A DNA stretch of 64,000 bases, from positions 62,001-126,000 of the forward strand of contig JAJUIB010000003.1 of NCBI GenBank assembly GCA_029265615.1, given 5' to 3'. This DNA is from Spirochaetota bacterium. Its GTDB lineage: Bacteria; Spirochaetota; Spirochaetia; Treponematales; Rectinemataceae. The position numbers were made by a program, and so were the translations under genes. Each line of letters opens with the position of its first letter. The first letter of the stretch is position 1. Shown here piece by piece: positions 29,275 to 63,859 of this stretch. The notes below the pieces were generated by a model. It was not told the origin of the DNA. It saw only the letters and a list, made by a program, of their open reading frames with translations, and did no database searches.

Positions 29275-32200
29275 TCACTTCTTCCTGATGCCGAGGAGCG
29301 TGAGGTCGTCCCACTGGTCGTCCTCGGAGAGCCCGCGATAGCGGACATAATTCGGATCCTCGATTTCTACGACTTCGACCTTGCCGTCCCTTCCCTTCCG
29401 TTCCAGTTTCTGGGTGATCGGTTCCCGCGCGCGGAAGAGGAGGCGGAACTGTTCGAAGTGCTTTTCAAGGAAGGCCTCGACGCGCTTGTCGATGATGATC
29501 GAGTCCTCGGGACTGCGCTTGGGGTCGTAGTAGAGCCGCCAGACCTTTTCGAGGGCAATCATGCCGATGATCCGCTCCTCGAGACTGCCTGACACCGAAG
29601 AGAGGTCGAAGCTGCGGAGCTCGTCCTTGTGCGCCTCGTCATGCTGGCGCTCGATCGCATAGCGGCCGCGTGCATCGAAGGCCAGGTTGAAGGCCTCGAG
29701 GCGCTCGGGGCCGAGCTCTTCGGAGTCGTCGCCGCCACGGTGGTTTTCGTGGGGTTCGCCGTTCGGCACATCCGTGCAGGCAAAGGGCTGGAAGTCCGCA
29801 TCGCGGAAGGAACGCATCGACTCCTCGATGCCGTCGGTGTAGAGAAGGAGTATGTCGCCTGGGTTGAGCCGCCGCTTTACGGTGCGGTAGGGGGTTACGT
29901 CTCTGAAGAAGGAGCTCGGGAGAGGCCCGGTCGCGGGCGCCTTGTGCAGCGTTTCGACCTCGAGCCTGCCCGTCGCGCGGCGCCAAAAGTGGAGCATGTT
30001 GTCGCCCGCATGGCAGAGGGTAAGCTCCCCGTCACGCGCGGAGATGACTCCCAGCGTGAAGGCGGCGAATTTCGCCTCGTAGCCGCGGCTTGCAAGGAAG
30101 TCGTTTACGCGGTAGGTGAGGTCCGTGAGCCCGAAGTCGGGCACCTTGGGGGATGGCTTAAAGTCCGAGAAGTAGTCTGTCACGAGCGTGACGATCTGGA
30201 CCATGATGAATGCCGCCTCGACGTCCTTTCCGGAAACGTCGCATTTTATGAAATAGAAGTACCGCCCATCGTTTCCTATCGGCCTGAAGTCCCAGTAGTC
30301 ACCTGATACCTTTTTCGCGCCTTTGTAATAGCCGAACATCTCGAGCTCGGGCATGTCCTTTTTGCCCGTCGTGTATTTCTTGCCGCCGCCTGCGTCGTCA
30401 AGCGGTATGAGGATGCGCTGGATGTCGGAGCCCTTTTCGAGTGCCTTTGACTCCTTCGCAGCAATGACGAGCTCGCGCTTAAGCTCGTTCGCGGCCGACG
30501 CGAGTGTCGCAAGCTCGTCGTGTGAGCGCACCTCGATGGAGAACGACGAAAGCGTCTCCTTGTCCTCGGCCTTTCTTATCGCGTCAATGGCGGCGATGAC
30601 GTCCTTAATCGGCCGCACGATAACTGAAGCGAGGAATATGGCGCCCGCAATGCCCGCGGCGAGCGCCGCTGCCGCAATTATGAGCGTTATGCGAATTAGT
30701 CCCGCGGTCGAGTCGCGCACTTCAGCGGCTATGCGGTCGGTCGACACCTCAAGGCGGACCATGCCGCGATAGTAGAGCGCGTCGGAGCCGCGGCGGTAGA
30801 GGATCGGCTTATAGAATAGGTAGCGGCCGCCAGCACGCACGGCGGTCGCAGGGTCGAAGTCGGGCTCCGATCCGACCGATGCGTTTGCGAGGGCGAAGAG
30901 CTTCTCCGCGATCTCGCGTTCGAGCGTGGCGCTTGCATCGGCGATTTCTGCGAGCCGCCGCTGCGAAGCCTCGTCAAGCCGCGTGGCAAGCGCGCGTCCC
31001 TCGCGGGTGTAGGCGGCGATGCTCTCGTTGAGCGCGCCGACCTCCGCCTGGGCCCGGCGGTCGAGTTCTGCGGCGATCGAGGGAATGCGCGGGCTGAGCT
31101 CGTCCGCGAGGACTGAGACGCCGGGCTTGAGTGCAGGACTATCGATCTTGTCGGCGATGCCTGGGTCGTTCGAGGCCCAGACGACGTCGAGCGCCGTCGA
31201 GCCGCCCGAGCCGTAGCCGCTTAAGGTGATGTAGGAGGCGTCCTCCATGGCTTGCGCCTGGCGCGGGAGAAGGCCGAGCTCGAGGACGTTCTGCGCGGGA
31301 AGGTAGGACCTTCCGCCCTGCGCGACGCTTTCGAGGAGGACAAGGGCGCGCTGGCGGAGTCCCGTGGCGAGGGTTTCGGACTGGTTCTTGATGACATAGG
31401 CGCCAAGGACGACCGCGAGGAGTCCGACGACGAGGAGCACAAGGATCGCCACGATGATGGTGAACTTGAACCTCAGGCCGGCGCCGCGACGTTCGAGCTC
31501 GCGGGCCTTGACGGCCTTTTTGGCGCTGGGCATGGGACCTCCTGAGACGAGGGCTAAGACTTCGCGCCGGATGGCCGCTCCGTCGGCGACGGCGGCGCGG
31601 ACCTGCGCGAGCGACAGCGATATGCCGAGGCCGGCGAAGAGGATTGCGGCGAGGACGATGGCGTCATAGAGTGAGAAGCGGTAGCGGTGCGGCTCAAGGA
31701 GGCTCCACGAGGGGCGGTACTCGCCGGCCGGCATGCCGAATTTGAGCGTGCCCGCGGCGTCGACGGCGAGGACGGGCGCGGTCCAGTACCAGCCACGTAC
31801 GGGATGGAGAAGGCCGATGCGGTACCTGCCTTCTTCAAGCCCCTCGTAGGCGATGCCGTCGAGCTCCCGATCGGAGGCGACGCGGAACCCTCCCTCTGAG
31901 CGTTCGCGGACGAGGTCGTAGGGGTCCCTGCCGTCGCGGTCGAGGACGAGGCGCGTCACCGACCCTTCGGCAGAAAAACCGCGCCCGATTACGCGCAGGC
32001 TTGTGCGGCCAAGATCGTCGCGCCGCGCCTCGGCATAGGCGACGAGGGTGTAAGGCACGAACTTGTCGGCGCGGAGCATGATCGTCGCGGTGTCGCCGAC
32101 GTTGCCGGTTCGGTCGATCGCCGCGACCGAAAAAAAGTAGTAGCCGTCGTCGACGTTGCGGTAGCTTGCGCGCGGCTCCGCGCCAAGCAGGCTGGGCGGC

Positions 32201-34008
32201 GGAAGGGTTGGCCCCGAGCGTTCAACGAGAAAGGCCTCGTAGGCGCTTAAGCCGGGAAGGGGGGCGCGGGCGGGAAGCCTTGCCGCGGTCGGTGCGGGGA
32301 AAAGGCCGCCCGCATAGCGGAGTTCCCAGGTGTAGCCCGCAAGATCGTCCGCCTCGGGCGGAACCCAGCGCACGGTGAAGGTGTTCGAGGCGAGGAAACC
32401 GCGTTCGTCAAGCTCTGGCGGCATGAGGAGCGGCGGCGGCGGCGGCGTGCGATCCCGCTCGAAGGAGACGCGTGTTGTCGCAGACCAGTTGCCCGCGTAG
32501 TCGCGCGCGGCGACGGCGAGCCACCAGGTGCCGTCCTCCGGGACGGGCAGGTGGAGCCGCGACTCCGCGGGGAGGGCCATGACCTCGCGCGGCGGTTCCG
32601 CGCCCGCGTCTCGGCTGAACACATAGGAAAAACCCTCGAAGCCCGAGGAATCGGGCGCAAGACTCACCTGCGCGGTCGCTCGCTCGCGGCGGGTCCGCGT
32701 GCCGGGCTTCCAATCGAGCGCAAGGATCGAGGGCGGGGCGGCGCTTGTATCGGGCTCGAGGGCGATAATCCGATCGCGGCTGCCCTCGCTCGATTGCCAA
32801 AATGCGTAGAGTCTCCCTTCCGCTACGGCGAGCCTGCCGAAGGAGGCGTCGCTCCGCCCGACCGAAAGCTCGGTTTCCGGCCAGTCGGCGCCTCGGCGCT
32901 GCGCAAAATAGACGCGGTTGCCGCCGCGACGGTTGTCGAACCAGGCGACGGCCGGCTGACCGCCGAGTTCATAGACGGCCGGCGCCGAACAGCTGCCGGC
33001 TCCCGAGGAGACGCGGTCCGCGGCGCCGGGACGCGGCATGCCGTCGGCGCCCAGCGGCATCGCATAAATCTGCGGCTGCCCCGTGAGTGTGGCGCGTTCC
33101 CATGCAAGCCAGAGTCCGATTTTCGTTTCGCCGAGAAAGGGGCGTTGGTTGTCGAAGTTGTCGGCGGCATTGCGCTCGCGGATGACGGGGTCGGGAAAGT
33201 CCGTAATGCGGCGCGCAGGGCTCCAGTTCCGGCCTCCGTCGGTAGACAGCTTGGAATAGAGTTGGAAGCTCCGCCGCGCACCCGGTATGAGAGACTGGAA
33301 CACAACGACATCGACGGGACGGCCTTGCGCGTCGCGGCTCCGCGCCGCGCTCGGGAGAAAGTTGAGCTCAAGCCCCTCCTCGCCTGCGACAAAGGGGCGG
33401 AAGGGCTCCCAGGAGCTTCCGTCCGCGCTCCGCGAATAGAACAGCTTGAGCGATTCGCTTTCGCCCTGGGTGACAAAGAGGAGCCAGCCTCCCTGCGCGG
33501 AGGGGAAAATACGCGGCGCGACCGCTGCGGCGCTCGGCGCCGGACGTTCGGCGACACGGAAGCTCCGTCCGCCGTCGTTCGAAAGAAGCACCTCGATCGC
33601 CCCGTCGCCTGCGGCGGCGGCGATCGCCACCTCGCCGTTCTCCGAGGCGGCTGAAAACAAAAGAGGCTCGGAGCCGCGATAGTCATAGGGGCCGGCGAAG
33701 CGGCGCCGGATCGTCCAGGCGTCGCGGGAGAGCCGCGCGAGGGAGAGCCATGCCTGGCCGCCCTCGCCCTCGCCTGCGGGCCGCGGGCTCGATTCCTGCC
33801 ACACGACGACGATGCCGCCCGAGGATGCAAGGGCGGTCGGGAAGCGGCCTGCTCCCTCGGCGAGGGGGCGGGGCGCCTCCCAGTAGTAGTCCTGCGCGGA
33901 GAGCGCGGTCCCCACAAGGAGGATGAAGGCGAAAAAGGCGCCTAAGCGCGCAGGCGGTCGTACGCGGTGCATTGCCTCAACTAATCCTCTTGGGCTCCTG
34001 CGCATCAT
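29275..34008 (-). CDS. Giant membrane sensor phosphatase: Asp-box propeller, FN3-like, HAMP, SpoIIE/PP2C
   Basis: 1577 residues. After a signal peptide (~1-38) comes a periplasmic beta-propeller with Asp-box repeats (SNDGGRSF ~145, SADGSSW ~195, STDGGRNW ~256). FN3-like sandwiches follow (~440-770). Two membrane segments (~785 and ~855), a second exposed region and a third segment (~1110) lead into a HAMP linker. The C-terminal SpoIIE-type Ser/Thr phosphatase keeps GDYWDF (~1240), KCDVSGKDVEAAF, CHAGDN, LLYTDGIEES and DQWDDLTLLGI, so metal ligands look complete. It should sense an envelope ligand and dephosphorylate a cytosolic anti-anti-sigma-type protein, as RsbU does. The start overlaps the upstream repeat-protein gene by 4 nt (ATGA). 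Confidence 0.88.
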   Translation of the reverse strand: MMRRSPRGLVEAMHRVRPPARLGAFFAFILLVGTALSAQDYYWEAPRPLAEGAGRFPTALASSGGIVVVWQESSPRPAGEGEGGQAWLSLARLSRDAWTIRRRFAGPYDYRGSEPLLFSAASENGEVAIAAAAGDGAIEVLLSNDGGRSFRVAERPAPSAAAVAPRIFPSAQGGWLLFVTQGESESLKLFYSRSADGSSWEPFRPFVAGEEGLELNFLPSAARSRDAQGRPVDVVVFQSLIPGARRSFQLYSKLSTDGGRNWSPARRITDFPDPVIRERNAADNFDNQRPFLGETKIGLWLAWERATLTGQPQIYAMPLGADGMPRPGAADRVSSGAGSCSAPAVYELGGQPAVAWFDNRRGGNRVYFAQRRGADWPETELSVGRSDASFGRLAVAEGRLYAFWQSSEGSRDRIIALEPDTSAAPPSILALDWKPGTRTRRERATAQVSLAPDSSGFEGFSYVFSRDAGAEPPREVMALPAESRLHLPVPEDGTWWLAVAARDYAGNWSATTRVSFERDRTPPPPPLLMPPELDERGFLASNTFTVRWVPPEADDLAGYTWELRYAGGLFPAPTAARLPARAPLPGLSAYEAFLVERSGPTLPPPSLLGAEPRASYRNVDDGYYFFSVAAIDRTGNVGDTATIMLRADKFVPYTLVAYAEARRDDLGRTSLRVIGRGFSAEGSVTRLVLDRDGRDPYDLVRERSEGGFRVASDRELDGIAYEGLEEGRYRIGLLHPVRGWYWTAPVLAVDAAGTLKFGMPAGEYRPSWSLLEPHRYRFSLYDAIVLAAILFAGLGISLSLAQVRAAVADGAAIRREVLALVSGGPMPSAKKAVKARELERRGAGLRFKFTIIVAILVLLVVGLLAVVLGAYVIKNQSETLATGLRQRALVLLESVAQGGRSYLPAQNVLELGLLPRQAQAMEDASYITLSGYGSGGSTALDVVWASNDPGIADKIDSPALKPGVSVLADELSPRIPSIAAELDRRAQAEVGALNESIAAYTREGRALATRLDEASQRRLAEIADASATLEREIAEKLFALANASVGSEPDFDPATAVRAGGRYLFYKPILYRRGSDALYYRGMVRLEVSTDRIAAEVRDSTAGLIRITLIIAAAALAAGIAGAIFLASVIVRPIKDVIAAIDAIRKAEDKETLSSFSIEVRSHDELATLASAANELKRELVIAAKESKALEKGSDIQRILIPLDDAGGGKKYTTGKKDMPELEMFGYYKGAKKVSGDYWDFRPIGNDGRYFYFIKCDVSGKDVEAAFIMVQIVTLVTDYFSDFKPSPKVPDFGLTDLTYRVNDFLASRGYEAKFAAFTLGVISARDGELTLCHAGDNMLHFWRRATGRLEVETLHKAPATGPLPSSFFRDVTPYRTVKRRLNPGDILLLYTDGIEESMRSFRDADFQPFACTDVPNGEPHENHRGGDDSEELGPERLEAFNLAFDARGRYAIERQHDEAHKDELRSFDLSSVSGSLEERIIGMIALEKVWRLYYDPKRSPEDSIIIDKRVEAFLEKHFEQFRLLFRAREPITQKLERKGRDGKVEVVEIEDPNYVRYRGLSEDDQWDDLTLLGIRKK

Positions 34009-37000
34009 AGCCGCGCCTGGATTTTTTTGTACAGATCAAGGAGCTTTTCCGACTTTTTGTTTTTAGGATCCTGGAGGAGGCGCTCCATAATGGCGTTAGC
34101 CTGGAGGTAGTTGCCGTTCTGAAAGGCCTCGACGGCGAGGCGGTACTGCTCTTCCGCATAGCTTGAAAGCACGATCTGCGCCGTGCCGCCCTGGAAGGTG
34201 AGAATGCGATCCTTGAGTGAGACCGCTTGGGCGTTGTTCGGGTCAAGTTGGATTGCCTCGTTGAGCTGCTCGAGGGCGAAGGCGAAGCGGCCCGAATCGC
34301 CAGAGTCGACGATGCGCCGGGCGGCGGCGACAAGCTCGGCGGCGCGGCGGGCGCGGGCCGGATCGGGTGGCGGGAGCCTGATGCCGAGGAGTATTTCCGC
34401 CCGTTCGAGCGCGGCCTGCATGCCGGGGTACTTCGGGTCGATCGTCGCAAGGTCCTGGAGTTCGGAGTAGGCCGCACGCGGATCGGTCTCAAGGCGGCTC
34501 CGCGCCGATGTGAATTTCGCCTGGAAGCCTATCTTGAAGGCCTCAGGATCGGTGAGCTGGTCGATCCTGAGCGCAAGGACGCCCGCTTCCTGATTGAGCG
34601 GGAACACGACCTTTACCTCGTTGATCTTCTGTTTCGCGAGGGCAAAATACTGGAGCGCGTCCGTCTTCTTCCGCTGGGCAAGGAGGCTTCGCCCTTCTTC
34701 GTAGTAGCGTTTGGCGAGCGAGAGGAGCTGGCTCATCTCGGGGTAGAGCGGGGCGGTTGGAGGAATATCGCGTCCCGTTTTGACGGAGAGCGCCGCCTGG
34801 ACAAGCTTGAGCCAGTACTCGACCTCGGGCTCCGTCTCGTCGCCATGGGTGGTCTTCCAGCGTGCCCGCGCGCGGAGGAGGGAATCCTCGGCTCGATCGA
34901 AGACCCCCTGGAAGTAGAAGGTCTTGCCTTCGGTGATGAGGCGGCGCGTGTCGCGGATGACGCGCTCGTTTTCGGCTTTGACGATGTCCTCGCCGAGCTT
35001 TTGGAGCGTGCGGTCCGAGCTTGCGCGGAGGGCGGCATTGTCCTCGAAGGCGAGCGAGACGAGGTATTTTTCGCGGGCCTTGCCGAGGCGGTCGCGAGCG
35101 AGGTCGAAATCCTCGCCCGCAAGGGCGCGCTGCGCCTCCTGGGTGCGGCGCTCCGCCTCGAGGCGCGCCGACTCCGCCGCGCGCTTTCGCTCGATCGCCC
35201 GGGCGAGCGCCGCCTCGCGTTCGGTCTGTAGGCTGCCCGTTTGCCGTTCGAGGTTGCGCGCTTTCTCCGTCCAAATCTGCACCGCGGGTGCGCTGGCGAT
35301 GTAGGGGGTCTCCCGCTCGAGCTTTTGAATGTAAGCGGAAAGACGTGCGCGGAGTTCCTTGAGGAGGCTTTCCTCGCCCGCCAAGATCTCCGCGCTTTTC
35401 GAGGGATAGTAGAGGAGGGCAGGCGGAGCGCCGAGCGCCATCGGAGTGGCGACTTCAGGCGGAGCGGCGCCTCCTGTAGCGGTGCCGGCAGCGGGAATGC
35501 CGTCAAGGAGGCGACGCCCCTCGGCGAGGGATGCCGCGCGCGCGGTGTAATCCGCCTCAAGCCGGGCAAACTCGTAGCCCGACGCGCGCGCGGCAAGTGC
35601 GATCTCGTAGTCACGGACGGTCAGGGCGAGGGCTGCAAGGCGGCCGTCATAGCTACCTTGGACGCGGGTTGCCCGCTCATCGCCGTAGCCGGCTGAGCTC
35701 CAGCGCGCAAGTTCCTCGGCAAGGAGCCGAGCGGGCTCGCGTTCGGCCTGAATGTCCGCCGCCTCGGCGAGAATCGCCGCACGCCGCTCGGCAAAGAGCG
35801 CAAGCGCCTCGGAGAGTGGCGCATTCGCGGGAAGCGCCTCGGCGCCCCGCGTCGCGGCGGCATGTGCGTCCGCGGCGCGGAGCGCGATGCGTGCAAGGCG
35901 TGCTTGGCCCGCTGCGGCCTTACCGAGGTGGCGGATGCGTTCATAGGCGGGGGCCTTGCCCGTCAGAATGGCCCGGCCATAGGCCGTAGGTTCCGGGAGC
36001 AGGTCCGTGGGGGCGACGAGGCTCCAGAGCCCCATCGCCTTAAGGCCGCGCTCGGCGAGGGCCGCTGTCCATTCAAGGCCGAGCGCCGCCTCTTCCCAGT
36101 TTTGCCCCTCGTAGGCCTCTTCCGCTCGGGCGTAGCTTGCCTCGAGCCTTTCCTCGAGGGGAGTCTGGAGACTTGTAAGCAAGGCGACCCACTGTGTATC
36201 CATGGCCCCTGCTATGCCTTCGGGCTGGCTTGACTCGGGCCGTCCCAGGGTCACGCGAAAGGCAAAGGGAAGAAAGGAGGAGTCCGTTTTTGCCGCATCG
36301 ATCGCCTGGAGAACCTCGAACTGCCGGGCCATAGCACGGCCCGCCTGGACGACGCTGTTGCGCCGCCGCGCCCGATCGAGGAGGGCCGCCTCCGCGGCGG
36401 GCCAGGCGGCGTCGATTGCGGCAAGACCGCCTGCGGCGAAACCTGCGCGGAGCCGCTCGACGCTCGCCGCAAGCTCGGTCTGGCTTGCCGCATAGGCGGC
36501 GACTTCCGTTTTGACGCGGTCGACCAGGGCGGCGACGGCGCTTTTGGTGAGTGCGTCGTAGGGGCCGGTATCGAACTCCTCGCGATAGATCCTGAAACCC
36601 GTTTCGTAGATCGCTGCGGCCTGGGCGTAACGCGCGGCATCGATTTCCGCGCGTCCCCTCGTCATGATGTCGTTGAAGTCACGCCTATAAACAAAGAAGA
36701 TGTTTGCAAGGCGGGTCTTTTCGACAAAATCCGCGGTGCCGGGGTTGTTGGGGTCCTGTCTCCTGAGCTCGTTCGTGAGGGCGACGATCTTGTCACTGTT
36801 CGTGGGGTCGTTGATCAAGGTGTCGACCAGCGCGTTGCCCGCCACGTTGTAGCTCTCGCGCTGGCGGATTATCTCCCGGAGCTTGATCTGTGCCTCGTCG
36901 AATCGTTCGGGGTTTTTTTTGATAAAGTCGGTGAGAAACGCGATCGCCTCGTTGTAGCGTTTTTGCGCTATCAGGGCATCCGCTTGCCTGAGCGAGTCCT

Positions 37001-37115
37001 CCTTTTTTCCCATGCCGAAGGCCATCCCCGTCCCGAGAAGGGTCCAGGCGGCAAGGGCGAGGATGAGGAGGCGCCCCGCCGGATGCATCCGGTCGCGGCG
37101 TTCGCACAGGTTCAT
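34005..37115 (-). CDS. Large exported helical repeat (TPR-like) protein
   Basis: 1036 residues. The N-terminus holds a signal peptide (RLLILALAAWTLLGTGMAFG). The rest is helical with TPR-like units, for example ADALIAQKRYNEAIAFL near residue 45, YYEEGRSLLAQRKKTDALQYF near 790 and FALEQLNEAIQLDPNNAQA near 945, plus a charged coiled stretch around 600-700. Probably periplasmic. Its gene is upstream of, and overlaps, the giant phosphatase gene, so the two products are likely made together and may interact. An ATG nine codons downstream (37088) is a possible alternative start. Confidence 0.82.
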   Translation of the reverse strand: MNLCERRDRMHPAGRLLILALAAWTLLGTGMAFGMGKKEDSLRQADALIAQKRYNEAIAFLTDFIKKNPERFDEAQIKLREIIRQRESYNVAGNALVDTLINDPTNSDKIVALTNELRRQDPNNPGTADFVEKTRLANIFFVYRRDFNDIMTRGRAEIDAARYAQAAAIYETGFRIYREEFDTGPYDALTKSAVAALVDRVKTEVAAYAASQTELAASVERLRAGFAAGGLAAIDAAWPAAEAALLDRARRRNSVVQAGRAMARQFEVLQAIDAAKTDSSFLPFAFRVTLGRPESSQPEGIAGAMDTQWVALLTSLQTPLEERLEASYARAEEAYEGQNWEEAALGLEWTAALAERGLKAMGLWSLVAPTDLLPEPTAYGRAILTGKAPAYERIRHLGKAAAGQARLARIALRAADAHAAATRGAEALPANAPLSEALALFAERRAAILAEAADIQAEREPARLLAEELARWSSAGYGDERATRVQGSYDGRLAALALTVRDYEIALAARASGYEFARLEADYTARAASLAEGRRLLDGIPAAGTATGGAAPPEVATPMALGAPPALLYYPSKSAEILAGEESLLKELRARLSAYIQKLERETPYIASAPAVQIWTEKARNLERQTGSLQTEREAALARAIERKRAAESARLEAERRTQEAQRALAGEDFDLARDRLGKAREKYLVSLAFEDNAALRASSDRTLQKLGEDIVKAENERVIRDTRRLITEGKTFYFQGVFDRAEDSLLRARARWKTTHGDETEPEVEYWLKLVQAALSVKTGRDIPPTAPLYPEMSQLLSLAKRYYEEGRSLLAQRKKTDALQYFALAKQKINEVKVVFPLNQEAGVLALRIDQLTDPEAFKIGFQAKFTSARSRLETDPRAAYSELQDLATIDPKYPGMQAALERAEILLGIRLPPPDPARARRAAELVAAARRIVDSGDSGRFAFALEQLNEAIQLDPNNAQAVSLKDRILTFQGGTAQIVLSSYAEEQYRLAVEAFQNGNYLQANAIMERLLQDPKNKKSEKLLDLYKKIQARL

Positions 37116-37233
37116 CGGACTATCGCCATCTCTTTCCCGAGCTAGAGTATACCTCGGCCCGGGGGCATGGGGCGGAGGCTTCCAATTTATTCTCGGCGCA
37201 GGCGGAAGCTGAGTGTAGGGCGAACGGCGGCGT

Positions 37234-37263
37234 GTAGAAATGTGTCCGATATGAGGGTATAAT
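37234..37263 (+). promoter_or_regulatory. Promoter of the FadL-like gene
   Basis: Perfect -10 hexamer TATAAT at 37258-37263 with a weak -35 (GTAGAA, 37234-37239) 18 nt upstream, ending 10 nt before the start codon. The short distance would give a very short leader. Confidence 0.6.
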
Positions 37264-37273
37264 TTCGCTAGAG

Positions 37274-38512
37274 ATGAAGAGAAACCGCATCGCGCCGCTC
37301 ATCCTCGCCCTCGCCCTCTTTTCCGGAGTCAAGGTGGCGGCACAGATCGGCCCCGACCTCTATCTTACACTTTCTTCCTTTTTCAGTCCCGACCCTAACG
37401 CGGGGCTCACATCCTTCCCCTCGCTGCTCATTCCGATGGGCGGTCTCGCCGAGGGCATGGGCATGGCGTATACAGCGGTTGCCAAGGATTCCTCCTACTT
37501 CGAGGCGAATCCCGCCGCGTCGAGCGGTCTTGCCGACACCGAACTAGCGATCTTTCACAACAACTGGATCGCCGACACACGCATCGAGGGCGCCGTCTAC
37601 ACCATACGGCACAAAGCTCTGGGTTTCGGCGCGGGCGGCAAGTGGCTTTACTTGCCTTTCACCGCTTACGACGACTTCGGTGCCCGCGAAGGCGCCGGCT
37701 ACTATTCCGAGGCGATCGCGGCGTTCAACGTGTCGTACAACTTCCTTTCGGGATACTACTTCAATGGCCTCGCCCTCGGCGCGACGGGCAAGATCGCGTA
37801 CCGCGCTGTCCCTGCAGCGATCGCCGAGGCCGCCGGCAATTCCGCGCTCGCCGTCATGCTCGACGCGGGCGCCCTCACAAGGTTCAATTTTCTCAAGTTC
37901 TACCATTCTCGCGAGAAGAATTTCTCCATCGGCCTTGCGCTCAAGAATCTGGGGCCCCCGGCGCTCGGGGATCCGCTCCCCACGACGGCGAGTCTCGGGC
38001 TCGCCTATTCGCCTTTCCGCCCGCTTACGTTCTCGCTCGATGTATCGAAGCCGATCAACCTGGTCGATCCTGAAAAATCGGGACAGTTCATCTTTGGCAC
38101 GGGATTTGAGATCCGTGTCGCCGACTTTTTTGGCCTGCATGGTGGATTCCTCCTCAAAGGCGGGAATCCCCGGCTCAGCATCGGTAGTTCCTTTGACATC
38201 GAACTCGTCAAGATCGTCGTCAACTACACGCTCGATCTGACGACCCAGTTTACGCCGCTCAACCGTCTCTCCATTCAGGCTGCATTTTCGCTCGGCGACC
38301 TTGGGCGCGCGGAGCTTGCGAAAAAGGTGGACAACCTGTATCTTACGGGCTTGGAGGCCTACGCGGCGGGCGACGTGGCGGCTGCGGTTGCCGCATGGAC
38401 CGAGGCCCTCAAGCTCGACCCGGGATTCGATCCCGCTCGCGAAAGCCTGCGGGCCGCGAAAGCTTCGCTCGAGCTCCTGAAGCGCATCGAGGAGCAGCAA
38501 AAGCTCCAGTAG
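37274..38512 (+). CDS. UPF0164/FadL-like outer-membrane protein with C-terminal TPR
   Basis: 412 residues. A signal peptide (APLILALALFSGVKVAAQ) precedes a beta-rich body of the UPF0164 family, a Treponema group modelled as FadL-like outer-membrane barrels for fatty acids or hydrophobic nutrients. Family-like segments are MGGLAEGMGMAYTAVAKDSSYFEANPA (split by a short loop), FHNNWIADTRIEGA and GGFLLKGGNPRLSIGSSF. The last ~65 residues (YLTGLEAYAAGDVAAAVAAW, LDPGFDPA) form one TPR-type unit, likely facing the periplasm. It is divergent from the repeat protein and phosphatase genes. Confidence 0.88.
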   Translation: MKRNRIAPLILALALFSGVKVAAQIGPDLYLTLSSFFSPDPNAGLTSFPSLLIPMGGLAEGMGMAYTAVAKDSSYFEANPAASSGLADTELAIFHNNWIADTRIEGAVYTIRHKALGFGAGGKWLYLPFTAYDDFGAREGAGYYSEAIAAFNVSYNFLSGYYFNGLALGATGKIAYRAVPAAIAEAAGNSALAVMLDAGALTRFNFLKFYHSREKNFSIGLALKNLGPPALGDPLPTTASLGLAYSPFRPLTFSLDVSKPINLVDPEKSGQFIFGTGFEIRVADFFGLHGGFLLKGGNPRLSIGSSFDIELVKIVVNYTLDLTTQFTPLNRLSIQAAFSLGDLGRAELAKKVDNLYLTGLEAYAAGDVAAAVAAWTEALKLDPGFDPARESLRAAKASLELLKRIEEQQKLQ

Positions 38513-39532: not shown

Positions 39533-41764
39533 CTACTCTGCCGTAGCGCCAGGCCCCGAGAGCGCCACATAGGATGCGAGGAAAAAGCGAAAGCCGCGAT
39601 AGCCAAGATGTGGGTCGAGTGCCGCCTCCGCGAGGACGACTTCTGCCGCCTGATCTGACCCGACCTCGAGGACAAGGCGGCCCATCGGCGCGCCGCGGGG
39701 CGGCTCTTCGAAGAGAGCGGTAAGCGCGGCGGCGAATTCCCCCTCCCAGGCTGGCCGCGAGGTCTCTCGACGGGCGGCGCGCTCGAGCGCCGCATCTTCG
39801 AGGGCGGCGATTCCGGACGCCTCCTCTTCGATAAAGGCGGCGTACATCGGGTAAAAGCGCTTTTCGAGCCCGAGTAGAGACGCGATTGCGATCACGAGTT
39901 CGTCGGAGACGTAGGCGGGGGGATCCTCGCGCCGCAGGCAGGACACGAGGGTGGGTATCGAACTCCGCTCGCCGAAGATAGACAGCGCATACGCCGTCTG
40001 GATGCGAACGCGGGGGTTGTCCGTTTCCACGAGGAGCTGCTCGATCGCCGCATGCGAGGCTCTGTCGCCGAGCCGCGCGAGGGCGATTGCCGCCGTCCCC
40101 TGGAGCATGTAGTCCTTTGTCTGGATCGCCCTGCGGAGCGGGCCCATCGCCGTCTTATCGCCGCTCTTTCCGAGGATGCGCGCCGCAAGATATGCCGTCG
40201 TAAAGGGATTTTGCTCGACGTGCGAAACGAGCGCCGCGAGGGTTGCCGGCCGAAGGTCTTTGATGTTTTCGAGGGCGAGGAGGGCCTCGAGTCGCGTCTC
40301 GAAGCGCGGCGAGGAGAGGTAGCCGAGGAGCTCCCCTTGGCTCTGTGTCGAGGCGTAGTCGCCGATCTCGCGGATGAGCCTGACTTCCTCGTCCGGGTCG
40401 TAGGTCCGGTCAAGCCGCGAAAGAAGGTCGAAGGCGCGGAGGTCGCGGAGCGAGAAGATCACGCCGAGCGATTCGCGCACCGTCGCTCCGCCGAGCCTGA
40501 CCAGTCTGCCCATGCGGACAAGAGCCCACACGAGGAGTGCAAGCAGTAGGCCGAAAAACACGCGATACGAATCCGCGCGTCCCAGGCTCCACGCTCCACC
40601 GATCCCGTCGCGTAGGACATCCAGGATAAGGCCTCCCGCCCCCGCCCCGAGCGAACCGCCTAGGCCGTAGGCGATGAAGTAGACAACGGCGAGATCGAGC
40701 GTCCGCTCGCGCGGCACAAGCGCAAAATAGTAGGTCTGCCCTGCGTTTTCCTCTCCCGAAAGGCCGAAGGACGAGAGAAAGTGGAGTGCGCCGAGGAAGA
40801 GCGCGACGCCAAGCGGCGAAGCCGGAGAGGGCGAGAGCGCCGCGGGGATGAGGCTTAGGGCGGAAACCGCGGTGAAGATCACATAGAGCGGCTTTGCGCC
40901 GAGGCGGTCCACGAGGAGGCGGGTAAGGATGCCCATCGCCACCGAACCGAGGCTTCCGAGGAGCGAATAGAGCATGATGAGGTCGTCCCCCTGCGCGTAG
41001 ACCTCCTTCGCATAGACCGGCAGAAAGCTCCGCGCCATACCCGCGACAAACGCGACAAGGACGAGCACTTCGATGAAGACGCGGAAGGCTGGCTCCCGGA
41101 AGGCTTCGCGGGCGGTGCGCCAGAGCCCCGTCGAATCGCGGGGGCGGTAGGCCTCAGGTTCGGGCGTTTTGAGGAGGAGGAGCGAGCCCGCGATACCGAC
41201 GCCGATACCAGCCGCGATGAGCGCAACATAGAGCGCCGCGCTCGCAACCCTCCCCAAGACGAGGGCGGCAAGCAGACTCGTCCCCATGCCTGCGAGGTTG
41301 TTGACGATCTGCACGTTGACAAGAAAGACGCCGCGGTCCTTGCCCTCCGCGAGGAAGGCGAGGACTGGATTGTTGCCGATGAGCCCGATGCCGCGAAATA
41401 CATTGAACAGCGCGACGCCCGCGAGGATGAGGCCGAATCCCACCCCCGGCAGTCCCGCAAGGACAAGGAGGGGCGCCCCGAGCAGGGGGATCATCGAGAG
41501 GTAGCGAAGCATCCAGCCCCAGCCAAAAACCTCCACAATGCGGCGCCGCGCGACGAGCCGTTTGCCAACAGGCAGGAAAAAGTAGTTCGCATAGGCGCAG
41601 GCGTTGAGGAGGCCGACAAAGGCGTTCGAGGCGCCAAGCCTGAGCGCAAAAAGGGTGATAAAGCTCCCGGAGAGGAGGACAAAGGAAACCGAATTGAGGA
41701 CGTTGAAGGCGAAAAAGCTGTTCCGCGCGGCTTTGAGCCGCGCGGGCGAGAGCGCCGAAACCAT
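39533..41764 (-). CDS. MFS-type permease fused to C-terminal HEAT repeats
   Basis: 743 residues. Residues ~1-430 hold about twelve hydrophobic segments with MFS-like loops (VDRLGAKPLY in the central loop). The cytosolic half (~440-740) is a helical-repeat region: EVRLIREIGDYASTQSQGEL, LEALLALENIKDLRPATLAAL, AIALARLGDRASHAAIEQLL and TAYALSIFGERSSIPTLVSC, each a HEAT-like unit. The domains are in one frame with no break. Substrate unknown; the HEAT array probably docks a partner. A TATACT hexamer lies only ~8 nt before the ATG, giving a possible very short leader. Confidence 0.85.
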   Translation of the reverse strand: MVSALSPARLKAARNSFFAFNVLNSVSFVLLSGSFITLFALRLGASNAFVGLLNACAYANYFFLPVGKRLVARRRIVEVFGWGWMLRYLSMIPLLGAPLLVLAGLPGVGFGLILAGVALFNVFRGIGLIGNNPVLAFLAEGKDRGVFLVNVQIVNNLAGMGTSLLAALVLGRVASAALYVALIAAGIGVGIAGSLLLLKTPEPEAYRPRDSTGLWRTAREAFREPAFRVFIEVLVLVAFVAGMARSFLPVYAKEVYAQGDDLIMLYSLLGSLGSVAMGILTRLLVDRLGAKPLYVIFTAVSALSLIPAALSPSPASPLGVALFLGALHFLSSFGLSGEENAGQTYYFALVPRERTLDLAVVYFIAYGLGGSLGAGAGGLILDVLRDGIGGAWSLGRADSYRVFFGLLLALLVWALVRMGRLVRLGGATVRESLGVIFSLRDLRAFDLLSRLDRTYDPDEEVRLIREIGDYASTQSQGELLGYLSSPRFETRLEALLALENIKDLRPATLAALVSHVEQNPFTTAYLAARILGKSGDKTAMGPLRRAIQTKDYMLQGTAAIALARLGDRASHAAIEQLLVETDNPRVRIQTAYALSIFGERSSIPTLVSCLRREDPPAYVSDELVIAIASLLGLEKRFYPMYAAFIEEEASGIAALEDAALERAARRETSRPAWEGEFAAALTALFEEPPRGAPMGRLVLEVGSDQAAEVVLAEAALDPHLGYRGFRFFLASYVALSGPGATAE

Positions 41765-52623: not shown

Positions 52624-52715
52624 GTCTGCCGCGCTATGCCGCTTCCCCCCGCGCCCGGTGCGGTGTACACTAAGCGCGGTCGCATGACGGCCGATTTTCC
52701 ATGGTGGGGAGCATC

Positions 52716-54953
52716 GTGCCTGAAGTATCCCAATCTCTGCGCCGGACCGTCGCCGCGCTACTGTGTGCCGCGGTGCTGGGTCCAGCGGCGTCCAGCGCGC
52801 TCGAATCGCAATCCGGGTCCGCCGCGCTCATCGATCTTACCGCACTCGACTTTTACGTGAGAAAGGACTTTTTTGTCGAGTGGACCTATTACGAGCCGGA
52901 TCCCGGTGATCCGGGCTGGACGCGGCTTCCGGCCGCGGGAGGTTCCCGATCGCTGTCGGTGCGGGACATCCCTGCGCTCGCTGCGAACGCCCGTCCGCGC
53001 CTGATTCCCGGGCCGGCGGAGCGATTTTGCCTCCTCACTGTATTTGACGCACCGCCATCACTCCTTGAATCGGCCGGCGGCGTTGGTCTCTACCTCGAGG
53101 ACATCGGTCGAAACTGGGAAGTGTATCTCAACGGCAGCTTGATCCAGAGCGAGGTCTTTCTCGACAAGGCCGGCAGGATCGCCCGTGAACGGGCCGTGCA
53201 TGGCGCGCTTGTCGAAATAGACAAACGCGCGCTCAGGCCGGGGAAGAACGTTCTTGCATTCTCCATCCTGGGCGATCCCGCCGACTACCGGACCGGTCTG
53301 TTCTCTCCGGCACCCTATCTGCTTGGCGACTACCTCTCCCTCGCCGCGCGGAAAGCCGAGGGCCTCGATCTCATGCTCATCGGTATCTACTTTTTCTTTG
53401 CGCTCTACCACCTCATTCTGTTCGCCTTGCGGCCCAGGGGGATTGATTACCTGTTCCACGGTCTTGGGACCTTCCTGTTCGCCGTCTACATTCTGTCAAG
53501 GTCATACGTCATCTACGATCTAGTGGCCGATACCGCCATCGTGCGGGGCGTCGAGCTTTCTTCGCTGTTTTTGCTCGTCGCGTTTTTTCTTCTATTCTTC
53601 GATCTTTCGTGCCGCGGCCGTGTTTCTCTCTTTTCCTGGATATATGCGGGCGCCTCGGCCGCCGCTGCCCTGCTTGCTCCCTTTTTTCTCGGCGAGGAGG
53701 TGCTGAAGGTCTGGCAGTATTCCTTGGTGCTACCCTTTGGCTATCTGCTCGTGTTTGACGTGGCGTTGCCCGGCATTGCCCAGCTTAGGATGCTGGTCGC
53801 ACGGCGTGAGGGCGGAGCGGCTGGGGGTAGTGAGCCCGCGGCAAGACCGTTCGCTGAGGGCGACGGCAAGGCGGCCTCGCGGCATGGGGGAGGATCACTC
53901 GCCGCTGTCGCCATCGCGGCATCGGCCGTGGTTCTTGCGCTCCTTTCGGCGCTGTTCGGGCTCAACTCCGCCGCCACCCTCATCACCGTGAAGGTCGGCG
54001 CATTTGTCCTCGTCATGTCCACCGCGATGTACCTGGCGGGCCGCTTTACGGGGCTTGGCAAAAAAATCGAGCGGCTCAATGCCGGGCTTGAAGAGGTGGT
54101 TCGCAGAAGGACGGCCGAACTTGCCGATGCGATGGAAGAGCAGATGGGCCTCAACGAGCGCCTTGCCGCCGCGAATGCGCGCCTTGAGGCGGCACACGAG
54201 GCCGCCGCCCGGGATATTCGGCTCGCGGTGCAGGTGCAACAAGGCTTTTTCCCGCGCAAAGAGGCGGAATTCACAGACTGGGATCTGGCTTTCGCCTATC
54301 TGCCGGCGCGCGGCGTATCAGGCGATTTTTACGACTTCTATGAAAAGGAGGGGAGGCTCGCGGGGCTGGTCTTGGGCGATGTGTCGGGACACGGAGTCGC
54401 CTCGGGGCTCATCACGGTGCTTGCGCGCTCGGTTTTTCGGCGCGCCTTCGAGCAAGCCCATGGCCGTCCTCTGGGGTTCGCCGTCGAGGTGGCAAACGCG
54501 GAACTGTCGCGTGACCTTTCGCTCGTCGACAACTACCTCACAGCGGTCCTTTTACGGCTTGACGGCGGCTCGGTCGAATACGCGAACGCCGCGCACCCCG
54601 ACCTCGCCTTCCGGCGTGCGGGGAAGGCGCGGGCAAGTCTCCTTGCGCCGCAGGATACCGCGTATAAAGGATCTCCGCTCGGGCGCGAGGGCGTTGCCAC
54701 ACCTTGTCGCTCGCTGAAGTTCGAGGCGCGGCCGGGAGATTCGCTCCTTGTGTATACGGACTGTCTTATCGCGAGCCCCGACGTAGATGGCGAGCCCCTC
54801 GGCGTCGAGGGGCTCCTTGTCGCCTATGGGCGGGCGCCTGACGGGACGGCACAGGAAATGCTTGAGTATATCCTCGAGGAATTCCGGTTTCACACCCGCG
54901 GCGTCGAGGTGCGTGACGACTTGAGCCTTGTGCTCATCAAGCGGCGGGGCTAA
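52716..54953 (+). CDS. 7TM-sensor SpoIIE/PP2C phosphatase
   Basis: 745 residues from GTG 52716, with GGGGAG 4 nt upstream; an ATG five codons earlier has none. After a signal peptide, a periplasmic sandwich domain (GRNWEVYLNGSLI near 135) and a 7TM region (~215-450) with a low-complexity Gly/Ala loop give a 7TMR-DISM-like layout. A coiled coil (~455-510) links to the SpoIIE phosphatase: GVSGDFYDF, LGDVSGHGVASGL near 555, NAAHPDLAFR and RDDLSLVLI. The usual YTDG motif reads YTDCLIAS. Likely to dephosphorylate a sigma-factor regulator; its partner is not in the window. Confidence 0.88.
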   Translation: MPEVSQSLRRTVAALLCAAVLGPAASSALESQSGSAALIDLTALDFYVRKDFFVEWTYYEPDPGDPGWTRLPAAGGSRSLSVRDIPALAANARPRLIPGPAERFCLLTVFDAPPSLLESAGGVGLYLEDIGRNWEVYLNGSLIQSEVFLDKAGRIARERAVHGALVEIDKRALRPGKNVLAFSILGDPADYRTGLFSPAPYLLGDYLSLAARKAEGLDLMLIGIYFFFALYHLILFALRPRGIDYLFHGLGTFLFAVYILSRSYVIYDLVADTAIVRGVELSSLFLLVAFFLLFFDLSCRGRVSLFSWIYAGASAAAALLAPFFLGEEVLKVWQYSLVLPFGYLLVFDVALPGIAQLRMLVARREGGAAGGSEPAARPFAEGDGKAASRHGGGSLAAVAIAASAVVLALLSALFGLNSAATLITVKVGAFVLVMSTAMYLAGRFTGLGKKIERLNAGLEEVVRRRTAELADAMEEQMGLNERLAAANARLEAAHEAAARDIRLAVQVQQGFFPRKEAEFTDWDLAFAYLPARGVSGDFYDFYEKEGRLAGLVLGDVSGHGVASGLITVLARSVFRRAFEQAHGRPLGFAVEVANAELSRDLSLVDNYLTAVLLRLDGGSVEYANAAHPDLAFRRAGKARASLLAPQDTAYKGSPLGREGVATPCRSLKFEARPGDSLLVYTDCLIASPDVDGEPLGVEGLLVAYGRAPDGTAQEMLEYILEEFRFHTRGVEVRDDLSLVLIKRRG

Positions 54954-61281: not shown

Positions 61282-62310
61282 TCAGTTTTTGATGTCGACG
61301 AGCTCCATCTCGAAGACGAGGAATGCGTTCGCGGGGATTACGCCGCCAGCGCCGCGTTCGCCATAGGCGAGTTCGGGCGGAAGGACGACAAGGCGCTTTT
61401 CGCCTTTTTTCATGCTCTGCACTACAATATCCCAGCCGGGGATGATTTCGCCTGCGGCGACGCGGAAGCGGATGGGGCCGCCGCGGAGCGAGGAGTCGTC
61501 AAAAACACGGCCATCGAGTAGCATGCCCCGATAATTCACGGCCGCAGTCTGTCCCTTGGCGGGGTTGGGGCCTGCGCCCTGTTTGAGTGTCTTTTGGAAG
61601 ATGCCGTTGTCGCCCTTGGCAAGGTCGGGGAAGTTTTTGGCGATGAGCGCAAGGTCGGCTTCGCGCTGAGCCGCGACGCGAGCCTTTGCGGCGGCGGCGG
61701 CGGCCACCGCCCGTTCGTCGAAGGCGGTCTGGTCGGTTTTGAACGCCTGCGCGTTTTTGCCTGCGCGGATTATGTCGATTTTCTCGATCTTGTCGCCCTG
61801 GGCGATTTTTTTAACCACATCCATGCCCTCGACGACGCGGCCAAATACCGAGTGGCGACCGTCAAGCCAGGGAGCTTCCTTGAGCGTGATGAAAAACTGC
61901 GAGCCGTTTGTTCCCGGGCCGGCGTTTGCCATGCTGAGGACCCCCTCGCCATCGTGCCGGAGTTCCGGGCTGAACTCGTCGGGGAATTCGTAGCCCGGGC
62001 CTCCTGAGCCATTGCCTTCGGGGTCGCCGCCCTGCACGACAAAGTTGGGTACAACCCGGTGAAAGACGAGGCCGTCATAGAAACGTTTTCCTTTGTGCGG
62101 GCCGAGCGTGCCTTCGGCGAGGCCAACAAAGTTGCCGACGGTGAGGGGGGCGCGCTCGTACTCGAGCTTGAGGAGCACCTCTCCCTTGCTCGTCTTCATG
62201 CGGGCATAGAGGCCGTCAGGCAGCGTGGGGGCCTGTTGGCAGGAGGCAAGACCCCCGGCGAGCAGGCACAGCCCCGCCGCGAGGATGCTGCGGTAAGCCT
62301 TGGTGCGCAT
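61282..62310 (-). CDS. Dual-family immunophilin lipoprotein (cyclophilin-FKBP)
   Basis: 342 residues from the ATG at 62310, with GGAGGAAC just upstream. Lipobox LASC at about residue 24, so it is a lipoprotein. Residues ~35-190 are a cyclophilin-type prolyl isomerase (FHRVVPNFVVQGGDPEGNG, NGSQFFITLKEAPWLDGRHSVFG split here). After a helical Ala-rich linker (~195-245) the C-terminus is an FKBP-type isomerase (QTAAVNYRGMLLDGRVFDDS, EIIPGWDIVVQSMKKGE). Both domains look active-site complete. Cyclophilin-FKBP fusions (CFBP) are known in T. denticola and few other organisms. Confidence 0.92.
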   Translation of the reverse strand: MRTKAYRSILAAGLCLLAGGLASCQQAPTLPDGLYARMKTSKGEVLLKLEYERAPLTVGNFVGLAEGTLGPHKGKRFYDGLVFHRVVPNFVVQGGDPEGNGSGGPGYEFPDEFSPELRHDGEGVLSMANAGPGTNGSQFFITLKEAPWLDGRHSVFGRVVEGMDVVKKIAQGDKIEKIDIIRAGKNAQAFKTDQTAFDERAVAAAAAAKARVAAQREADLALIAKNFPDLAKGDNGIFQKTLKQGAGPNPAKGQTAAVNYRGMLLDGRVFDDSSLRGGPIRFRVAAGEIIPGWDIVVQSMKKGEKRLVVLPPELAYGERGAGGVIPANAFLVFEMELVDIKN

Positions 62311-62402
62311 TGTTCCTCCGTGTGATGCGATGGGCGAGCATAGTCCGAAAGTGCAAGGGCGGACAAGGGTCGGGTGCTGGTGAAAAAACACACAGGCCGC
62401 GT

Positions 62403-62431
62403 CTTGACCGGAGCGATCGGGCAGGGTCAAG
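62403..62431. promoter_or_regulatory. Inverted repeat upstream of the dCMP deaminase gene
   Basis: CTTGACC (62403-62409) and GGTCAAG (62425-62431) are exact reverse complements with a 15-nt spacer. The left arm contains TTGACC, which could also be a -35; the right arm would then overlap the -10. A possible operator, not proven. Confidence 0.4.
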
Positions 62432-62454
62432 ATGGCCTTTAAGGGAGGTTCTCC

Positions 62455-62946
62455 ATGGCCGAGGAGGGGTACCGCCGTCCAAGCTGGGACGAGTACTTTA
62501 TGGAGGTGGCGAATGCGATCGCCAAGCGGGCAACCTGCGATCGGGGGCGCTCGGGCTGCGTCATAGCGCGGGATCACCAGGTGCTTGCGACGGGCTATGT
62601 CGGCGCGCCCGCGGGGCTTCCGCATTGCGACGAGGTCGGGCACCAGCTCAAAAAGGTCGTCCATGAGGACGGCAGTGTCACCCAGCACTGCGTGCGCACC
62701 GTGCACGCGGAACAGAATGCGATTTGCCAGGCCGCGAAGCGCGGCGTCGCAATCGACGGTGCGACCTTGTATTGCCGCATGACGCCCTGCCGCACCTGCG
62801 CGATGATGATTATCAACTGTGGCATTGTCCGCGTGGTCGCCGAGCGCCGCTATCATGCCGGCGCTGAGAGCGAGGAGATGTTCCGCGCCGCGGGCGTGAG
62901 CCTCGAGTTCGTCCATGAAGACATAGAGCGCTACGACAATCAATGA
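62455..62946 (+). CDS. dCMP deaminase (ComEB-like)
   Basis: Deaminates dCMP to dUMP for dTTP synthesis. 163 residues. Zinc and catalytic motif HAEQNAICQAAKRG near residue 84 and TPCRTCAMMIINCGI near 108 are intact, with YVGAPAGLPHCDE upstream, typical of the dCMP branch rather than cytidine deaminases. GGGAGG precedes the ATG. It is divergent from the CFBP gene, with a 7-bp inverted repeat between them. Confidence 0.94.
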   Translation: MAEEGYRRPSWDEYFMEVANAIAKRATCDRGRSGCVIARDHQVLATGYVGAPAGLPHCDEVGHQLKKVVHEDGSVTQHCVRTVHAEQNAICQAAKRGVAIDGATLYCRMTPCRTCAMMIINCGIVRVVAERRYHAGAESEEMFRAAGVSLEFVHEDIERYDNQ

Positions 62947-63010
62947 GGATACCAGTGTAGGGGGCGCGCTTGTAACTCGGTCCCGATTCCGGTAGATTGA
63001 AATCGTGGGC

Positions 63011-63859
63011 ATGCGCATACTCTACGTCGGCGAGATTGTCGGGAAGGCGGGCGTCTTCACGCTGAAGAAGCTCCTCAAAAAGGCTAAAGCCGAAACGGGG
63101 GCGGATTTTGTCTTCGGGAACGCCGATTCGGCGACGGGGGGCGCAGGGATCGGGCGGCAGCACGCCGTTTATCTGCACAAGCTCGGTCTTGAGGCGATCA
63201 CTCTTGGCGAGTGCTGCTACTACAAACGCGACATCGTCGAACATATGGGGAAGCTCCCGTACCTCATCCGTCCTGCAAACTATCCCTATGGCAATCCTGG
63301 ACGCGGCTACCGCATTTTCCCAAGCCCTAAGGGGAAGGTGGCCGTCGTCGAGTTACTTGGCCAAGCGGGTTTTCCCCGCGTGCATCTTGCCAATCCCTTC
63401 CAATCGGCGACCGACCTGCTCAGGAAGCTCCGCGAGGAAGCTACGGTGCTCATCCTCGATTTTCATGCGGCAACCACCGCGGAAAAGGAGGCTATGGCGC
63501 TCCATGTAGACGGCCTTGCTTCCGCGATGATCGGGTCCCATGGCAAAACCCTCACCGCCGACGCTCGCGTGCTTTCAGGCGGCACGGCGGCGATCACCGA
63601 CGCGGGGAGGACGGGTAGCCTCCTCTCCGTGGGCGGCCTCGACGCTTCGACGCGGATCGGGGAATTCCTCTCGGGAATCCCCGCCTGGTCCAAGGACGGA
63701 ACCGCGGGGCTCGAGCTCCAAGGTTGCGTGATTGAAATCGCGGAAGACGGACGCGCCACGTCAATCCGGGCGCTCAGGATGCCCTGCGAGGAGGTGCTCG
63801 ATGACCGAACGGGGGATAGTGACGGAGATCCGGGACAGGGTGTTGACTGTCCAGCTTGA
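63011..63859 (+). CDS. YmdB-family phosphodiesterase homologue with altered metal ligands
   Basis: 282 residues from the ATG at 63011 (a GTG two codons earlier is possible). The whole YmdB frame is visible: MRILYVGEIVGKAG, FGNADSATGG, GECCYYKRDI, LIRPANYPYG, DFHAATTAEKEAMALHVDG, GSHGKTLTAD, TDAGRTG. Compared with Bacillus YmdB (GDxVG, NGENA, GNHTWDKK, GTHTHVQTAD), several metal-site residues are changed. Related enzymes cleave 2',3'-cAMP. Activity is therefore uncertain. The last 59 nt overlap the next gene, so translation is probably coupled. Confidence 0.82.
   Translation: MRILYVGEIVGKAGVFTLKKLLKKAKAETGADFVFGNADSATGGAGIGRQHAVYLHKLGLEAITLGECCYYKRDIVEHMGKLPYLIRPANYPYGNPGRGYRIFPSPKGKVAVVELLGQAGFPRVHLANPFQSATDLLRKLREEATVLILDFHAATTAEKEAMALHVDGLASAMIGSHGKTLTADARVLSGGTAAITDAGRTGSLLSVGGLDASTRIGEFLSGIPAWSKDGTAGLELQGCVIEIAEDGRATSIRALRMPCEEVLDDRTGDSDGDPGQGVDCPA

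Follow-up and report, generated by a model that had tools for sequence, protein, structure and literature searches.

A periplasmic solenoid protein and a propeller-bearing SpoIIE-type phosphatase: a candidate envelope-sensing module of spirochaetes

Here we describe a gene pair of spirochaetes which codes for an exported helical solenoid protein and a SpoIIE-type phosphatase with a large periplasmic ectodomain. The anatomy of the genes, their linkage and their being kept or lost together were observed directly, as were a distant operon with STAS and kinase genes, orthology of the STAS protein and a linkage to PspA. We lean towards the view that the pair, an outer-membrane barrel and a STAS/zinc-ribbon protein form a conserved two-protein-plus envelope-sensing module, in which the phosphatase would act on the STAS/zinc-ribbon protein.

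The DNA analysed, here called the window, is a stretch of 64,000 nucleotides from a Spirochaetota bacterium (Spirochaetota; Spirochaetia; Treponematales; Rectinemataceae; assembly GCA_029265615.1, contig JAJUIB010000003.1, positions 62,001 to 126,000, forward strand). Class and order in the counts below are those of this source genome. Both reading frames and their overlap are located exactly where the initial annotation had seen an exported TPR-like protein and a propeller-FN3-HAMP-SpoIIE protein (Table 1), and its statement that no kinase or anti-sigma gene is nearby was correct within the window. The final four bases of the solenoid gene, ATGA, are the first four of the phosphatase gene, an overlap which suggests that the two are translationally coupled. 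Among 51 measured adjacent pairs, 32 overlapped by 4 nt and four by 1 nt; another 14 overlapped or were less than 31 nt apart. With 102 class genomes that contain it, the pair is no chance arrangement.

Table 1. Position of the gene pair, its divergent neighbour and the phosphatase domains in the window.
Feature	Position	Strand	Remarks
Phosphatase gene	29275-34008	-	1577 aa, ATG start; propeller/FN3/TM/HAMP/SpoIIE; TP0854 orthologue
SpoIIE/PP2C domain	29278-30336	-	Invariant D1237, D1257, D1392, D1567/D1568
Conserved insert	29329-29778	-	~150 aa, flanked by TDG and DDLT motifs; ordinary SpoIIE domains lack it
HAMP	30493-30636	-	Residues 1125-1172; weak, E 0.005 (below cut-off); strong in relative
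Three membrane helices and second periplasmic sensor loop	30571-31671	-	Residues ~780-1146; sCache_3_2 in distant relative
FN3/Ig-like beta domains	31759-32691	-	Residues ~440-750; Big_13/Y_Y_Y matched in relative
Periplasmic beta-propeller	32719-33876	-	Residues ~45-430; ~7 blades by strand count; three Asp-boxes
Overlap of solenoid and phosphatase genes	34005-34008	-	4 nt; ATGA on -, TCAT on +
Solenoid gene	34005-37115	-	1036 aa, ATG start; exported alpha-solenoid (TPR-like); TP0855 orthologue
Divergent intergenic region, solenoid gene/UPF0164 gene	37116-37273		158 bp
UPF0164 (FadL/PorV-like) outer-membrane barrel	37274-38512	+	C-terminal TPR; divergent from solenoid gene; PF03687

Further genes of the window and of related loci were recorded. 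A second SpoIIE-domain protein (52701-54953, + strand, 750 aa, PF07228 E 6e-27) is encoded at a distance of ~15 kb, and a gene similar to it lies near the pair in G322 (C83:4724-5311). At 39533-41764 (- strand) a major-facilitator transporter (residues 21-374) is fused to HEAT repeats; a larger homologue of this fusion (995-1092 aa) adjoins the module in G320 and G342 (loci L062 and L066). A single protein of 578 aa combines cyclophilin and FKBP peptidyl-prolyl isomerase domains (61282-63018, - strand). Downstream of the phosphatase (loci L071-L111) small conserved genes are found which code for coiled-coil proteins of ~105 aa in Treponematales and for zinc-ribbon membrane proteins of ~110 aa in other orders; as such they were discarded as STAS candidates.

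The phosphatase was modelled from 55 sequences over residues 1-1190 (mean pLDDT 86). The model opens with a signal helix, followed by a single beta-propeller and by FN3-like domains. Behind these come three membrane helices, accompanied by another loop in the periplasm, and at its end the HAMP region begins. The propeller has a pLDDT of ~90, carries Asp-boxes at residues 143, 194 and 255 and matched sialidase-type propellers in the PDB with E 7e-13; in Pfam the BNR/Asp-box matches of the window phosphatase (E 0.016-0.03) were below cut-off. Distant relatives match BNR_2, Big_13/Y_Y_Y, sCache, HAMP and SpoIIE directly. We take the predicted propeller to be real despite the low Pfam score because of the confident model, the PDB match, the three Asp-boxes and the direct BNR_2 match of the relatives. 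Its fold matches were sialidase-type and glycan-active propellers and, lower down, the HTCS sensor BT4663. A PDB search with the phosphatase sequence returned a match limited to the PP2C part of Rv1364c. At the cytoplasmic end the SpoIIE match was above cut-off (residues 1249-1398, E 1.3e-20; PF07228 74.6 bits against a cut-off of 25), and in 12 diverse homologues all five aspartates listed in Table 1 are invariant, i.e. those of the metal site are intact. The insert, which precedes the last motif, was delimited by the SpoIIE profile match, which stops at position 137 of 192, and by conserved columns among homologues.

The solenoid protein was modelled from 49 sequences as all-helical (pLDDT 87.8). 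It starts with a signal sequence, and a lipobox is absent in 53 homologues. Fold matches in the PDB were TPR and other helical solenoids, none of them spanning the full length; in the corresponding sequence search only short stretches of designed TPR proteins and designed helical proteins were matched. Pfam reported weak TPR matches exclusively (TPR_11 with E 1.9e-5, under the Pfam cut-off). In G006 (L094, G006:C1:1039210-1042130) two frames make up the gene, which its near relative G049 carries as a single frame; a sequencing error or decay may be the reason. In another genome (G337:C43:51643-57246) the open frame that holds the solenoid gene runs to 1871 aa, with a much enlarged middle.

Is the pair kept together in other spirochaetes? 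The initial annotation had named separation in relatives as a finding that would speak against a joint device. Across 393 genomes of the phylum the opposite was observed: the solenoid gene accompanies the full-length phosphatase in all 102 class genomes that encode the latter, and the class contains no genome with a solenoid and without the phosphatase. Eleven genomes of the order possess a phosphatase lacking the ectodomain (730-900 residues), and none of the 11 has the solenoid. Profile searches for a hidden solenoid in these genomes returned short, weak repeat matches only, and those for a hidden phosphatase in phosphatase-less genomes ordinary SpoIIE domains only. A second genome set, which partly overlaps the first, had the solenoid gene directly upstream in 51 of the 54 loci with enough upstream DNA (L313, on a contig as long as that of G300, is among the three exceptions). 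Fisher's test gave 2e-14, a value obtained from adjacent genes in genomes that are not independent; the honest measure is therefore the count of separate losses. When the C-terminal part common to both forms was used for a tree, seven changes were needed to account for the phosphatases without ectodomain; at least six of these are forced by well-supported branches. These gene distributions support the notion that the solenoid goes specifically with the phosphatase ectodomain rather than with the phosphatase domain, and solenoid and ectodomain very probably act as a unit.

The pair appears to have a third partner, which the initial annotation had overlooked, i.e. the divergent UPF0164 barrel with a TPR of its own (PF03687 at 178.7 bits against a cut-off of 21.4). 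UPF0164 was identified in 95 of the 102 pair-bearing class genomes, and all 32 solenoid-less genomes of the order lack it. In 45 of 51 inspected loci it is divergent from and close to the solenoid gene. The seven pair-bearing genomes without a recognisable UPF0164 all belong to one genus and count against our explanation. We give an even chance to the barrel being part of the input. Because the genes are adjacent, each joint loss could be a single deletion, and one deletion could take UPF0164, solenoid and ectodomain together. However, G300 has retained solenoid, phosphatase and UPF0164 on three separate contigs (L078, L079). This argues against single deletions as the whole story, and such unlinked retention was seen in G300-like genomes only.

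Outside the class the phosphatases have 1330-1460 residues, and the upstream gene codes for 740-850 residues, often with a 4-nt overlap. Comparison of these upstream proteins with the solenoid family by hhalign gave 98.1-99.8%, collinear over 341-385 columns, whereas an unrelated TPR protein as a control reached 39% over 53 columns. They are homologous to the C-terminal half of the solenoid and share with its family the motif P-x-Y ... P-x-N/Y-x-x-A ... D-P/I. One of these groups, f24, has an operon in the order TPR protein (homologous to the solenoid family, 98.1%), propeller phosphatase (BNR_2, Big_13/Y_Y_Y, sCache_3_2, HAMP and SpoIIE domains), STAS protein, in most cases with a zinc ribbon, and RsbW-like HATPase kinase. 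The operon is complete in G068, G003 and G061; in G039 the kinase gene was not called, and in G016 and G054 the operon is partial at contig ends. Five f24 genomes link phosphatase and STAS protein directly.

An orthologue of the f24 STAS/zinc-ribbon protein is encoded in the source genome on a contig other than that of the window (G000:C32:34815-35363+, 183 residues, 48.6% identity over 177 residues). It matches PF01740 with 77 bits and carries a Y-V/I-S-S-T-G motif, the S-S-T-G of which we take to be the usual phosphorylation site of STAS antagonists. Every one of the 113 class genomes with the phosphatase (90 of the order and 23 others) encodes the orthologue. Among the 21 phosphatase-less genomes of the order it is absent in eight, has 47-57% identity in nine, gives a weak match only in G138 and is well conserved, with 67-70%, in G221, G364 and G382; these identities are raw, without phylogenetic correction. 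The last three genomes count against the STAS/zinc-ribbon protein as the substrate. In one genus second, more divergent STAS/zinc-ribbon copies were noted (46-59%; G232, G247, G273, G287, G297, G301, G308 and G315). The initial annotation had placed the partner-switch targets elsewhere. The orthologous STAS protein on another contig and the f24 operon with its STAS protein and RsbW-like kinase lend genomic support to the idea of a partner switch; an orthologue of the f24 kinase was found neither in the source genome nor in eight other class genomes examined. The STAS/zinc-ribbon protein is likely to be the substrate of the phosphatase, as judged from linkage and co-occurrence.

The module may be real and signal through other STAS proteins and RsbW-like kinases, the STAS/zinc-ribbon protein belonging to a separate pathway. 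The source genome does offer such alternatives: STAS was matched seven times and SpoIIE 11 times, and STAS-kinase clusters occur at several places; the STAS/zinc-ribbon genes of the class have no cognate kinase nearby, and the three phosphatase-less genomes with a well-conserved copy fit as well. The direct phosphatase-STAS linkage in f24 and the occurrence pattern across the class speak against this alternative, and we consider it rather improbable.

PspA is an envelope-stress protein. Behind the STAS/zinc-ribbon gene a CesT_Tir_1/YbjN-like gene plus PspA/IM30, or PspA alone, is located in 17 of 24 class loci examined, the source genome included; in the four Treponemataceae examined PspA was absent from this position, which counts against our explanation. 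The initial annotation had missed this apparent link between STAS gene and PspA. A role in envelope integrity is the simplest guess because of the known function of PspA, and PspA may be part of the output, a suggestion we make with some reserve.

A small genome of 1.14 Mb (G056) has five UPF0164 genes laid out like TP0548, TP0856, TP0858, TP0859 and TP0865 of Treponema pallidum. By its size and this layout G056 appears to be T. pallidum itself or to be very closely related to it, and the locus names TP0854 and TP0855 follow from the layout. Its STAS/zinc-ribbon protein is the one which we take to be TP0233. T. pallidum keeps the full set, i.e. five UPF0164 genes, solenoid, full-length phosphatase and STAS/zinc-ribbon protein (TP0854/TP0855/TP0856 and TP0233). 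In total, three STAS and three SpoIIE matches were obtained in G056 (L214, L215). A PF13581 search for an RsbW-type kinase gave a single weak match, which is a piece of a histidine kinase. Without an RsbW-type kinase STAS phosphorylation in this genome is unexplained, which counts against our explanation. Published annotation agrees with the layout: TP0854 is a SpoIIE phosphatase and TP0855 a hypothetical, putative outer-membrane, abundant protein. TP0855 is described as abundant and predicted to be in the outer membrane (PMC11668736, PMC5015957), with no function assigned (PMC11668736).

The abundance and predicted localization of TP0855 would also suit a structural or housekeeping protein of the outer envelope, e.g. 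an outer-membrane tether, with which the phosphatase shares a promoter only; given the gene overlap, co-transcription could explain everything. Such a protein would not be expected to follow the ectodomain rather than the phosphatase domain, as exemplified by the eleven truncated phosphatases, nor to persist after separation from the phosphatase as in G300. We regard this possibility as improbable, too. Least probable is an ectodomain acting as a sialidase or other glycan-active enzyme with phosphatase signalling as a secondary matter: the best PDB matches of the ectodomain are sialidases, glycoside hydrolases and lyases, and TP0854 was entered in proteomics work as similar to bacterial sialidases (PMC10600179), yet these matches are at 9-16% identity with the sensor BT4663 among them, the family does not preserve the arginine triad of sialidases (R289 and R305 are the only propeller arginines conserved to >80% across the family) and the phosphatase motifs are invariant.

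In the envelope-sensing module as we propose it, the periplasmic solenoid would work together with the propeller/FN3 ectodomain, possibly as a complex, and in most species the FadL-like barrel with its own TPR would join them. The input may be the state of the outer envelope, namely whether the barrel is occupied or intact or whether the propeller meets a ligand. Membrane helices and HAMP would relay it to the cytoplasmic SpoIIE/PP2C domain, which would dephosphorylate one STAS/zinc-ribbon protein. This, in turn, would free or engage a partner, the output of which would include the products of the CesT/YbjN-like and PspA genes that follow the STAS gene. Regarding the trans-envelope device of the initial annotation, which relays to a cytosolic PP2C phosphatase, the joint retention of solenoid and ectodomain lends support by comparative genomics; contact, activity and direction of the signal remain predicted. 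That the chain spans both membranes in full, with FadL-like barrel, solenoid and propeller phosphatase signalling the condition of the outer membrane to a STAS/zinc-ribbon protein in control of a PspA-type envelope defence, and in Treponema without an RsbW-type kinase, is a speculation that we rate as rather doubtful.

The RsbU-RsbV-RsbW and SpoIIE-SpoIIAA-SpoIIAB systems are partner-switching systems with PP2C phosphatases of the RsbU/SpoIIE type. For this type of phosphatase entries to the literature are available (PMC3517971, PMC8256260). The module resembles them in the SpoIIE/PP2C domain with intact metal-site aspartates, in the S-S-T-G at the usual acceptor site of the STAS protein and, in f24, in the RsbW-like kinase. 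It differs by the huge periplasmic propeller/FN3 ectodomain, the separate periplasmic solenoid, the outer-membrane barrel, the 150-aa insert in the phosphatase domain, the fusion of STAS to a zinc ribbon and by the kinase, which was not found in the class. Similarly, in Bacteroides HTCS such as BT4663 a periplasmic propeller plus a Y_Y_Y/FN3-like domain drives a cytoplasmic output through the membrane. There, two propellers are present instead of one and the output is a histidine kinase instead of a PP2C domain; additionally, the module has a second periplasmic sensor loop, HAMP and further partner proteins. The barrel is of the same UPF0164 family as the FadL-like proteins of T. pallidum, one of which, TP0856, adjoins TP0855 in divergent orientation. 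In contrast to the sensing role considered here, TP0548, TP0856, TP0858, TP0859 and TP0865 are described as importers of hydrophobic nutrients and as vaccine candidates; in three of these five, TPR helices at the C-terminus lie in the periplasm, and TP0854 and TP0855 are not mentioned (PMC8407342). No literature linking these genes was found, in a coverage from which subscription journals were mostly lacking. The data suggest that signals pass from the outer envelope into the cytoplasm along a route not described so far.

With only ~1.1 Mb T. pallidum retains the set, which raises the concrete question what phosphorylates its STAS protein in a cell without an RsbW-type kinase. A single sensing module would give the FadL-like proteins, TP0855 and TP0854 each a testable role.
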